NCBI RefSeq assembly: GCF_029210485.1
Contig: NZ_JARGET010000013.1
Span: forward strand, 1-64,000
Length of the DNA: 64,000 bases
Direction of reading: 5' to 3'
From: Hoeflea sp. YIM 152468
GTDB lineage: Bacteria > Pseudomonadota > Alphaproteobacteria > Rhizobiales > Rhizobiaceae
Part shown: in pieces, positions 45,991-49,693 of the stretch
Layout of the letters: every line of letters starts with the position of its first letter
Position numbering within the stretch: the first letter of the stretch is position 1
Notes under the pieces: generated by a model
What the model saw: only the letters and a program-made list of their open reading frames with translations
Told to the model about the DNA's origin: nothing
Databases searched by the model: none
Program-made: the position numbers and the translations under genes

Positions 45991-46359
45991 TCAGGCCGCG
46001 CGCGCCACCAGAGCGTCGGCAACAGCCTGGCGGATCTGCGGCAGGGTGAACGGCTTTGGCACCACATCGACAACAATCTGCATCAGCGGTTCGGCCCGTT
46101 CGCGTTGCTCGGCATAGCCTGTCATCAGCAGGATGGGCATGGCAGGCGTCAGGTCGGCCGACGCTGTCGCGAGTGCGATGCCATCCATAACCGGCATTCG
46201 GATATCGGAAAGCAGCAGATCAAAGGATTCGGCCTGCAAACGCTCCAGCGCCTCGGCGCCGTCGCCAGTCTCGACGGTTTCATGTCCATCCATATTCAGC
46301 GCACGAGCAACAAAACGGCGCAGTGAATCTTCGTCTTCGGCAATCAGGATTTTCGCCAT
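45991..46359 (-). CDS. cpdR: Single-domain response regulator CpdR
   Basis: A 122-residue receiver domain with no output domain. Phospho-acceptor Asp52 sits in LLSDIRMPVMDG, with the acidic pocket EDED at 8-11 and Lys in VVPKPFTL. The sequence MAKILIAEDEDSLRRFVARALNMDG matches CpdR, which when unphosphorylated directs ClpXP to degrade CtrA and other cell-cycle proteins; in rhizobia it is needed for normal division and symbiosis. GAGGGAGTG lies before the ATG. Two CtrA-like sites occur in this window. Confidence 0.92.
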   Translation of the reverse strand: MAKILIAEDEDSLRRFVARALNMDGHETVETGDGAEALERLQAESFDLLLSDIRMPVMDGIALATASADLTPAMPILLMTGYAEQRERAEPLMQIVVDVVPKPFTLPQIRQAVADALVARAA

Positions 46360-46555: not shown

Positions 46556-47098
46556 TCAGGCGTCGCCCTTGACCACACCGACAAACGGCAATTCCCGGAA
46601 CGCATAGGCCACGTCCATGCCATAGCCGACGACGAAATAGTCAGGACATTCAAATCCGACATAATTCGCGTCGAGTGTGCCCTCACGACGGGAGTGTTTG
46701 TCCAGAAGCACCGCAATCTCGACATCCTTGGCGCCGCGCTCATACATCAGATCACGGGCAAATCTCAGTGTCCGGCCAGATTCGAGAATATCGTCGATCA
46801 GCAACACGTCGCGGCCGCGCACATCGCTGTCGATATCCTTGATGATCTTGACGCCCTGGCTCGTGGTGCCCCGGCCATAGCTCGACAGGGTGATGAATTC
46901 GACCTCCGGTGCGAGCCCCGCATCATGCAGGGCACGGATCAGATCGGCGGCAAAAATGAACGACCCCTTGAGGATGGAAATCACCAGAAGATCGGTCTTC
47001 GGATTGTTGGCGATTTCCGTTGCCATGGCGCGATTGCGGGCTGCAATCACGTCCGGCGTGAAAAGGGGCTCGATGATTTTTCCGCGCACAACCGGCAT
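46556..47098 (-). CDS. hpt: Hypoxanthine phosphoribosyltransferase
   Basis: A 180-residue salvage enzyme that joins hypoxanthine or guanine to PRPP. The PRPP loop VLLIDDILESGRTLR and the flexible-loop SSYGRGTTSQG region are intact; Lys/Asp residues for purine recognition are in the C-terminus (YVGFECPDYFVVGYGMD). GGAGAG precedes the ATG. Single gene; cpdR lies 196 bp downstream on the same strand. Confidence 0.95.
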   Translation of the reverse strand: MPVVRGKIIEPLFTPDVIAARNRAMATEIANNPKTDLLVISILKGSFIFAADLIRALHDAGLAPEVEFITLSSYGRGTTSQGVKIIKDIDSDVRGRDVLLIDDILESGRTLRFARDLMYERGAKDVEIAVLLDKHSRREGTLDANYVGFECPDYFVVGYGMDVAYAFRELPFVGVVKGDA

Positions 47099-47199: not shown

Positions 47200-47847
47200 C
47201 TAATTCCCGGCCGGGCGGATCATCAGGATCGATCCGGCCCGCTCGATTCGCGCCGGGCGGGGCGCGGCAGTTGTAAAGCCTTCCTGTACAGCCTCGGTCG
47301 GTCTTGCCGCAATCGAGGCTGTCACCATCGGGTCCGGCACCAGCGCCGCTCGGTCGGTGACCGCAACCGTCGCTGCGGCAGACAGGCTTGCGGGTGATAC
47401 CTGCGGGCTGGCCCGGGGCGGCGACACCGATGCAGCGCCGCCCGCCATCCAGACTGCGGCTGCCGTCACCGCGAACACTGCAAGGGTCAAGGCTGGCAGC
47501 GACACAGACGATCGGGACCTTCCGGCTACACCGGCGGCTGCATCACCACCGAAAACGCCGAGCCGTTCAGTGCGCGAGGCCTGGCGCAAACCATAATCCA
47601 ATCCGGCAAAATCCCGAGGAACAGGTCCGGAGCCATCGATTTGGATGATTCGCGATTTGTAAACGCCGCTCGTCCCGGCAACGCGCGGCTTCCTCGAAAA
47701 CACATCCCGGGGCCCGCTAACGGATTCGAAGCAGGCATCCTCCACATCCCGGACACGGGTTGCGCGCGGCTTGCGTCCGCGACCGGGCAGCAAAAGATCG
47801 TCATGACCCGGCACGATCGTGTGTGTCGCACGATTTGAAACGCCCAT
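47200..47847 (-). CDS. Unrecognised single-pass membrane protein
   Basis: A 215-residue protein I do not recognise. Residues 1-110 are polar and basic (LLLPGRGRKPRATRVRD; an IQIDGSGPVPRDFAGLDYGL stretch); 115-137 is a membrane segment (SLPALTLAVFAVTAAAVWM); the Ala/Ser/Pro-rich tail ends IERAGSILMIRPAGN. The topology is that of an N-in protein with a short periplasmic tail. Start ATG 47847 follows AAGGGGTGG; the frame is open to 48057, but that part covers the CtrA site and ftsE start. Divergent from ftsEX, so a link to division or envelope is possible but unsupported. Confidence 0.6.
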   Translation of the reverse strand: MGVSNRATHTIVPGHDDLLLPGRGRKPRATRVRDVEDACFESVSGPRDVFSRKPRVAGTSGVYKSRIIQIDGSGPVPRDFAGLDYGLRQASRTERLGVFGGDAAAGVAGRSRSSVSLPALTLAVFAVTAAAVWMAGGAASVSPPRASPQVSPASLSAAATVAVTDRAALVPDPMVTASIAARPTEAVQEGFTTAAPRPARIERAGSILMIRPAGN

Positions 47848-47969
47848 CAGCCACCCCTTTTCCACCTCTGCCACGCATGAGGCATTGAAACATCCGTTAC
47901 CGATCCGTAAATGCAAATGGTTAACGCTTGGCGAACAGGGCGCTTCGGCCAGCCGGTTTGGCAAATATC

Positions 47970-47985
47970 TTAACTCCGCATTAAC
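47970..47985. promoter_or_regulatory. Consensus CtrA binding site between ftsE and the divergent gene
   Basis: The plus strand reads TTAA-N7-TTAAC (TTAA at 47970-47973 and 47981-47984, C at 47985), an exact match to the full CtrA consensus. It lies 63 bp before the ftsE start and 122 bp before the divergent gene. A lone GTTAAC sits 45 bp to the left (47920-47925). CtrA control of division genes is established in Caulobacter and Sinorhizobium; binding here is inferred. Confidence 0.65.
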
Positions 47986-48048
47986 CATACCCGGCGACTG
48001 TGCAGCCCGATCGCTGCGCAGAATGACCTCCGGGACAGGAATTGACCG

Positions 48049-48708
48049 TTGATCCATTTCGAAAATGTCGGTTTACGCTACGGAATGGGGCCTGAGGTCC
48101 TGCGTGACCTGACATTCGACATTCCCAAGAGATCCTTCCAGTTCCTCACGGGTCCGTCAGGCGCGGGCAAGACCACGCTCATGCGGCTGCTGTTCATGTC
48201 GCTCAAACCGACCCGCGGCCTGATTCGCATGTTCGATCGCGACATCTCCGTCATTCCCGGCGAGGATTTGCCGCTCTTGCGGCGGCGGATCGGCATTGTA
48301 TTCCAGGATTTCCGGCTTCTCGACCACATGACGACGTATGAAAACGTGGCCCTGCCACTGCGGGTACGCGGCAAGGACGAATCGACTTACCGCTCGGATG
48401 TCATCGAATTGCTCAAATGGGTCGGACTGGGAGAGCGCATCAACGTGCTGCCGCCGGTCTTGTCCGGCGGTGAGAAACAGCGTGTCGCCATCGCTCGAGC
48501 CCTGATCGACCAGCCCGAAATACTGCTCGCCGACGAACCGACCGGCAATGTCGACCCGCCGATGGCGCAGCGGCTGCTCAACCTGTTTACCGAACTCAAC
48601 CGGCTTGGAACTGCAGTGGTCATTGCCACCCATGATCTGAGCTTGATGGACCGGGTCAACGCACGCAGGATGATCCTTACCGACGGACGGCTCGACATCT
48701 ATGACTGA
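48049..48708 (+). CDS. ftsE: Cell division ATP-binding protein FtsE
   Basis: A 219-residue ABC ATPase of the FtsEX complex, which controls peptidoglycan hydrolases at the septum. Walker A GPSGAGKT (35-42), signature LSGGEKQRVAIARAL and Walker B ILLADEPTGNVD are intact. The start is TTG at 48049, giving the conserved MIHFENVGLRYG, with AGGAA about 8 bases upstream. Overlaps ftsX by 8 bp. A consensus CtrA site lies 63 bp upstream. Confidence 0.95.
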   Translation: MIHFENVGLRYGMGPEVLRDLTFDIPKRSFQFLTGPSGAGKTTLMRLLFMSLKPTRGLIRMFDRDISVIPGEDLPLLRRRIGIVFQDFRLLDHMTTYENVALPLRVRGKDESTYRSDVIELLKWVGLGERINVLPPVLSGGEKQRVAIARALIDQPEILLADEPTGNVDPPMAQRLLNLFTELNRLGTAVVIATHDLSLMDRVNARRMILTDGRLDIYD

Positions 48709-49693
48709 TCCGGCCGCCAGCACCAGCGACAGCCAGAAAAGAGAGCGCTTGATCACTCTGCGCCCGATGGCGCCGATCGTGCCGCCGGTCAATGTTTCGG
48801 GCCACGCACTGATGGTGGTGATCTCTATCATGTCGTTTTTGTGCGCCATGACACTCGGTGCGGTAACCATGGTGCAGGAGAAGGCCGAGGCGTGGCAGGG
48901 CGATATCTCCCGCGAGATCACCATCCAGATCAAACCTGACGACGGTCTCGACATGGAGGCGGCGCTGAGCGAAGTCAGAACCATCGCGCTGTCCTTTCCC
49001 GGCACCCTCTCAGCACAGATCGTTGATCGCGCCGCCACCGCCAGACTGCTCGAACCATGGCTCGGAGAAGGTTTTGACATCGATGAGCTTCCCGTACCGC
49101 GTCTGGTCATCGTCACGATTGATGAATCTGCGCCGCCGGATTTTGCTGCCATTCGTCAGACTCTCGCCGATGCAGTCCCGTCAGCCTCGCTCGACGATCA
49201 TCGCGCCTGGGCCAGCCGCTTGATTTCCATGGCCCGGATCACGGTGCTCATCGGAGTGGGAATTCTGGCCTTGATGTTCGCGACCACCATGCTGACCGTG
49301 GTGTTTGCAACCCGCGGAGCCATGGACGGCAATCGCCATATTGTCGAAGTTCTGCATTTTGTCGGCGCAGAGACGCGTTTTATCGCGTCCGAGTTTCAGA
49401 AACGGTTCTTGTTGATTGGGCTCAAGGGCGCAGCTTTTGGAGGTGGTGTCGCTGCTCTTGGTTTCTTGCTGCTTGGTGCATGGCAATCCAGCACCATGGC
49501 GACGGCTCTCAATGACCAGGCGACGGCTCTGTTCGGGCGCTTCACCTTGAGCAGCGCCGGCTATGTCGGCATTGTTGGCATCATCATCCTGATATCGGCG
49601 ATGACGGCGGTCACCACGCGCCTGACTGTCACGCGCACCATCCGTGAGATCGATCGCCAGCGCGCCGACCCGTCTTTGGCAGAAATCAGTTGA
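48701..49693 (+). CDS. ftsX: Cell division protein FtsX
   Basis: A 330-residue permease-like partner of FtsE with four membrane segments: one near residues 35-58, and three in the C-terminal half (about 183-203, 243-265, 288-310), with a periplasmic loop between the first two that contacts hydrolase activators. The EALxxV-type sequence is divergent, as usual in rhizobia. Its ATG overlaps the ftsE end by 8 bp. Few conserved residues are expected in FtsX, so the call rests on topology and linkage. Confidence 0.93.
   Translation: MTDPAASTSDSQKRERLITLRPMAPIVPPVNVSGHALMVVISIMSFLCAMTLGAVTMVQEKAEAWQGDISREITIQIKPDDGLDMEAALSEVRTIALSFPGTLSAQIVDRAATARLLEPWLGEGFDIDELPVPRLVIVTIDESAPPDFAAIRQTLADAVPSASLDDHRAWASRLISMARITVLIGVGILALMFATTMLTVVFATRGAMDGNRHIVEVLHFVGAETRFIASEFQKRFLLIGLKGAAFGGGVAALGFLLLGAWQSSTMATALNDQATALFGRFTLSSAGYVGIVGIIILISAMTAVTTRLTVTRTIREIDRQRADPSLAEIS

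Follow-up and report, generated by a model that had tools for sequence, protein, structure and literature searches.

CtrA is a cell-cycle switch of bacteria, and a putative role for it at ftsE is likely but not new, having been published before and disputed for one species. In B. abortus, CtrA binds the ftsE promoter (Bellefontaine et al. 2002, as cited in PMC2877005 and PMC3616915). A CtrA motif is predicted upstream of ftsE in S. meliloti, where it was compared with the mapped transcription start site (PMC3616915), and upstream of Atu3606 in A. tumefaciens, where the site was called allowing up to two mismatches and ftsE is up (log2 1.63) in a pdhS2 mutant (PMC7003649). The dispute concerns S. 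meliloti, for which Pini et al. (2015) conclude that expression of the Fts complex lies outside CtrA control and propose Min instead (PMC4433202). The B. abortus promoter shares gene, regulator and order with the Hoeflea locus described here, although binding was demonstrated there and is predicted from the sequence here. With S. meliloti and A. tumefaciens the likeness is the predicted motif upstream of ftsE; the passages dealing with these two sites mention neither an inverted partner box nor a divergent gene (PMC3616915, PMC7003649). CtrA control of ftsE alone is known ground, and what the Hoeflea locus adds is the partner gene.

For that partner gene the described counterpart is ZitP of Caulobacter crescentus, which reportedly binds PopZ, regulates cytokinesis and is needed for full CtrA activity (PMC5182063, PMC5182065). 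Its reported zinc- and PopZ-binding residues are C5, C8, C28, C31, R24 and W35 (PMC5182065), and its gene is reportedly under GcrA/CcrM (PMC5182063, PMC5182065). Rhizobiales were stated in 2016 to encode no ZitP orthologs, and unknown mechanisms of PopZ control were said to be required (PMC5182065). Two points are new in the present analysis, namely the pairing of two boxes at a constant offset and the identification of ftsE's divergent neighbor.

The window is the whole stretch of DNA analyzed, 64,000 nucleotides from Hoeflea sp. YIM 152468; its relevant features are collected in Table 1.

Table 1. Features around the divergent ftsE region of the window (positions are those of the window).
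Feature	Coordinates	Strand	Description
Single-domain response regulator	45991..46359	-	CpdR-like paralogue; under the CpdR cut-off
hpt	46556..47098	-	Hypoxanthine phosphoribosyltransferase; TIGR01203, 163.1 bits (cut-off 150)
Divergent gene	47200..47847	-	215-aa bitopic membrane protein; putative positional zitP-type remnant
Divergent intergenic region	47848..48048	.	201 bp, G+C 0.557, no GANTC
Box E1	47917..47924	-	Inverted TTAACCAT half-box
Box E2	47970..47988	+	TTAACTCCGCATTAACCAT; exact TTAA-N7-TTAAC (47970-47985) plus 8-mer TTAACCAT (47981-47988)
ftsE	48049..48708	+	TTG start; TIGR02673, 288.7 bits (cut-off 264.85, passed)
ftsX	48701..49693	+	Divergent sequence; TIGR00439, 51.1 bits (below cut-off 255)

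The window's FtsE is 97% identical to the FtsE of a Hoeflea sp. record. FtsX is recognized yet falls far under its NCBIfam cut-off, though it lies beside a clear FtsE. On the divergent side the open reading frame extends as far as an ATG at 48057, and the region is intergenic only if the later start at 47847 is used; this start is backed by relatives, whose proteins begin near there. With the starts ATG 47847 and TTG 48049, the 201-bp divergent region of the first-pass annotation is correct. A scan for sigma-70 promoters and terminators returned no site in the intergenic region and none above chance.

The same annotation had placed an exact CtrA site in this region, and both the letters and the coordinates check out: TTAACTCCGCATTAAC matches TTAA-N7-TTAAC with zero mismatches. 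It is the single exact match in the 64-kb window, against 0.01 expected. The opposite strand of E2 forms a one-mismatch box as well, and the ftsE start codon lies 63 bp downstream of the end of E2. A search with the combined pattern TTAACCAT-N7-TTAAC gave 0 matches. From its sequence and its conservation, E2 is quite probably a true CtrA box of this divergent promoter region, functional and, we infer, bound by CtrA.

Conservation was followed in two sets of genomes, 18 from the genus Hoeflea, the window included, in which the box was sought no more than 300 bp from ftsE, and 125 others from the order, out of 154 with an ftsE match. The first-pass annotation had proposed that a real site would be kept in close relatives, and it is: 16 of the 18 genus genomes have the exact box and 18/18 have one within a single mismatch, the 16 staying exact although the letters of their spacers vary. 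One-mismatch counts are not spacer-specific in Hoeflea (18/18 for spacer 9, 10 for spacer 8 and 14 for spacer 10), and therefore only the exact count is informative there. Across the order the exact box occurs in 41/125 genomes and a box with at most one mismatch in 74/125, which leaves 84 without an exact box and 51 without even a one-mismatch box. Spacers of 2-6 and 8-12 gave exact matches in 0-7 of the 125 and one-mismatch matches in 5-20, and a reversed-letter control gave 0-3. The second commonest spacing after N7 is N2, TTAA-N2-TTAAC being exact upstream of ftsE in 7/125. Outside the order there is no enrichment of N7, with 1/78 exact and 7/78 one-mismatch boxes against 2-11 at other spacers; among the genomes sampled, a box at ftsE thus characterizes the order and not the class. 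In 80 named Rhizobiaceae loci an exact full box on either strand is found in 31 and is lacking in 49, while a plus-strand box within one mismatch is found in 45. The annotation also asked whether the box keeps the same distance from ftsE. A fixed distance is rejected, as E2 lies anywhere between 47 and 197 bp from ftsE (sd 35).

What does stay fixed is the distance between E2 and a second element. Box E1 carries the same 8-mer in inverted orientation, 53 bp from E2 in the window, and points at the divergent gene. It is preceded by TTCG-N7, and together they read as a box whose first half is degenerate (47920-47935, two mismatches); the consensus across loci is TTTN-N7-TTAACCAT. On the plus strand E1 reads ATGGTTAA, the reverse complement of TTAACCAT, and among the 8-mers of the 300 bp before ftsE this one is the most frequent, with E1 exact in 65/80 Rhizobiaceae loci. 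In the 25 loci with exact copies of both boxes on one strand, E1 and E2 are offset by 51-54 bp with a standard deviation of 0.7, while the distance from E2 to ftsE varies as above. In the 40 loci that have E1 and no exact E2, a box with at most two mismatches is found 24 times at offset 52, 7 times at 53, 4 times at 51 and once at 42, and never at the remaining offsets from 20 to 89. The idea of one site shared by both genes is accordingly kept in part: the full box is present, but the layout is two-part, with the inverted half-box 53 bp away.

It is conceivable, though on balance doubtful, that the box serves ftsE only and that E1 belongs to the divergent gene's own promoter, perhaps as a core hexamer. 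The first half of E1 is not clean (TTCG or TTTN instead of TTAA), E1 remains exact in the 40 loci whose E2 is inexact, and the E1 block sits in a longer conserved stretch reaching the GTTTCAATGCC block, all of which would suit such an element. An ordinary promoter element would not account as readily for the 8-mer of E1 being identical to the extension of E2 in the window, for a conserved core that holds the N7 spacing to a TTT half, or for an offset to E2 that is kept at 51-54 bp.

A GANTC sequence (CcrM-type) lies 28 nt past E1 in 37/77 loci, as in a GcrA-type promoter; the window has none. GANTC is not enriched in any of the three samples, with 83 seen against 98 expected in the 80 named loci, 4 against 18.5 in Hoeflea and 114 against 139.9 in the order. 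With no GANTC in the window's region and no enrichment, a CcrM/GcrA site was set aside.

If E1 and E2 are both CtrA sites, the full box E2, adjoining the ftsE promoter, would be occupied by phosphorylated CtrA, and the inverted half-box E1 would provide a further CtrA contact for the divergent gene. The separation of about 52 bp corresponds to five helical turns; the two boxes would then lie on the same face of the DNA, so that joint occupancy is possible. ftsEX and the putatively zitP-derived gene would share one cell-cycle signal. For ftsE we lean towards activation by CtrA rather than repression, because E2 lies where a -35 element would be.

It is unlikely that E2 is a relic or of minor effect, such that CtrA may bind it while ftsEX is not materially regulated and Min sets division. 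This is what the study of S. meliloti by Pini et al. (2015) would lead one to expect, and in the same species rcdA, cpdR1 and pleC are CtrA-bound with no significant change in expression (PMC4433202). A relic would hardly stay exact in nearly all genomes of the genus while the letters of its spacer drift, and in A. tumefaciens ftsE does respond in the pdhS2 mutant (PMC7003649). A regulatory E2 remains the preferred reading.

The divergent gene had been listed as unrecognized. This holds in that its protein has no Pfam or NCBIfam match, but the gene occupies the slot of a ZitP-type gene. In 20 of the 29 order loci with long flanks, that slot is filled by a CxxC...CxxC protein. Thirteen such proteins, chosen for the motif, match Zn_ribbon_4 (13/13) and DUF3426 (9/13), and their profile matches PDB 2nb9 at 1.2e-12, an entry identified as the Caulobacter ZitP zinc ribbon from its sequence and from PMC5182063 and PMC5182065. 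All six zinc- and PopZ-binding residues of ZitP are invariant in the alignment of the 13. A strict zinc-ribbon pattern is found on the divergent strand in 90/125 order genomes and in 50/75 from other alphaproteobacterial orders, and on the other strand in 0 of both sets; these slot genes may be zitP orthologues or may correspond to a sister MJ0042 gene. ZitP-architecture genes hold the slot in most sampled order genomes outside Rhizobiaceae. Provided that the slot genes are orthologues of Caulobacter zitP, these counts suggest that the published absence of ZitP is true of the zinc ribbon in Rhizobiaceae and not of the order. The divergent frames of L152 (179 aa) and L155 (158 aa), from a family other than that of the window, keep a DUF3426-like region and have no zinc ribbon, possibly through an independent loss of the ribbon.

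Within Rhizobiaceae the slot between ftsE and hpt contains an open frame in 78/80 loci (L041 is truncated by the end of its contig, and for L094 the frame call is uncertain), and hpt, the next gene on the divergent side, is found in 79/80. Two loci, one from Martelella and one from Rhizobium (L103 and L116), have no divergent gene; there hpt is the immediate divergent neighbor of ftsE, and both boxes are missing. The strict zinc-ribbon pattern occurs in 0/80 of the Rhizobiaceae loci, and a looser pattern in any frame in 6. The window's protein has one membrane helix, with a hydropathy peak of 1.97 over 19 residues, and a single cysteine. Like Caulobacter ZitP it is a bitopic membrane protein; in contrast to ZitP it lacks the zinc ribbon (two CxxC, W35 and the basic patch), which is the PopZ-binding part of ZitP, the periplasmic DUF3426 is undetectable in it by Pfam or profile match, and its gene has predicted CtrA boxes where zitP is described under GcrA/CcrM. 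The whole genome gave no match to Zn_ribbon_4, TIGR02098 or DUF3426, all three of which were positive in a Caulobacter control, and it encodes a PopZ-family protein (DUF2497). The otherwise fast-changing divergent protein carries a C-terminal RIERAGSILMIR (protein 47203-47847) that is invariant in 11 aligned Hoeflea/Pseudohoeflea-type proteins and is encoded upstream of ftsE in 16/17 genus relatives and 12/80 named loci. SMc00651, a predicted CtrA target of S. meliloti, was dropped as a candidate for the divergent gene because ctrA is SMc00654 and the ctrA of the window's genome lies on another contig.

Profile comparisons connect the gene to zitP in two steps. For the Rhizobium/Ensifer type, the match to the ZitP-type profile spans 96 columns in the DUF3426 region (97.5%, E 4.9e-12), and 5 of its 11 members give weak DUF3426 matches, with 1.9e-4 as the best E value and the first member below the cut-off. 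The Hoeflea type in turn matches the Rhizobium type over 53 N-terminal columns (94.8%, E 4.9e-8). The window gene may therefore be described as a positional zitP remnant, partly supported by its sequence, and not as a ZitP. That it is instead unrelated, an independent membrane-protein gene having taken the slot in Rhizobiaceae or in Hoeflea, is rather improbable. Such an origin would fit the absence of any direct match between the Hoeflea-type and ZitP-type profiles (probability 6.3%), the lack of Pfam and NCBIfam matches and a Hoeflea C-terminus that is quite different. It would leave as coincidence the same slot, strand, topology and hpt neighbor, along with the chain of profiles that leads from the Hoeflea type through the Rhizobium type to the ZitP type.

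Descent from zitP can be fitted into a tentative history, possible and close to evenly balanced, in which an old divergent zitP-ftsE pair of Alphaproteobacteria, linking polarity and division, gained CtrA boxes in Hyphomicrobiales and its divergent protein then lost the PopZ-binding ribbon in Rhizobiaceae with the paired boxes kept. The Hoeflea protein would additionally have lost its recognizable periplasmic domain. Rhizobiaceae elongate from a single pole, and their PopZ is unipolar. If this history is true, the divergent gene would be a ZitP put to a new use and might be the missing link from PopZ-type polarity to division in this family. The ZitP-architecture genes of the order and the ribbon-less version in Rhizobiaceae make the question of PopZ control directly testable.

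That E2 is a chance match is scarcely credible and is refuted by its conservation with spacer specificity: the intergenic region is A+T-richer and 1/100 shuffles of the window has an exact box, but only 3/5000 dinucleotide shuffles of the 201-bp region contain one on either strand. The extended form, TTAA-N7-TTAACCAT, appeared in 0/5000 of these shuffles. The whole genome has 34 strand matches to the CtrA box (about 25 places), against 13 for a reversed-letter control. Crude gene calls put 20 of the 23 inspected places (of 25) between genes; the window's own box was called intragenic because of the long divergent open frame. ctrA itself is present on another contig (G000:C4:153553-154158), at 86% identity to a Caulobacter CtrA query sequence.

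Ten genes flanking other boxes, picked by eye and run against Pfam, comprise a flagellin, an OmpR-type response regulator with two boxes, TadE, FtsK, BTLCP, two outer-membrane barrels, a PAS protein, YkuD and FeeM. The flagellin and pilin genes of S. meliloti are direct CtrA targets (PMC4433202). The OmpR-type regulator is Rem-like by our reading; in S. meliloti the rem promoter has a CtrA motif, yet rem was reported as neither bound nor changed (PMC4433202).

The first-pass annotation had also placed CpdR, which controls the breakdown of CtrA, 1.6 kb from the box. The window's regulator resembles CpdR in being a single receiver domain, but scores 103-104 bits on the CpdR model NF046022 against a cut-off of 180. 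That cut-off is passed by a gene on another contig (G000:C4:34260-34613, 198 bits), and the neighbor was rejected as the CpdR equivalog. It is a paralogue, and the proposed link of the cluster to CtrA breakdown falls with it. A CpdR-like gene lies near hpt in 74/80 Rhizobiaceae loci. In L149, L151 and L156, which belong to another family, a relative is the gene immediately upstream of ftsE, in opposite orientation.
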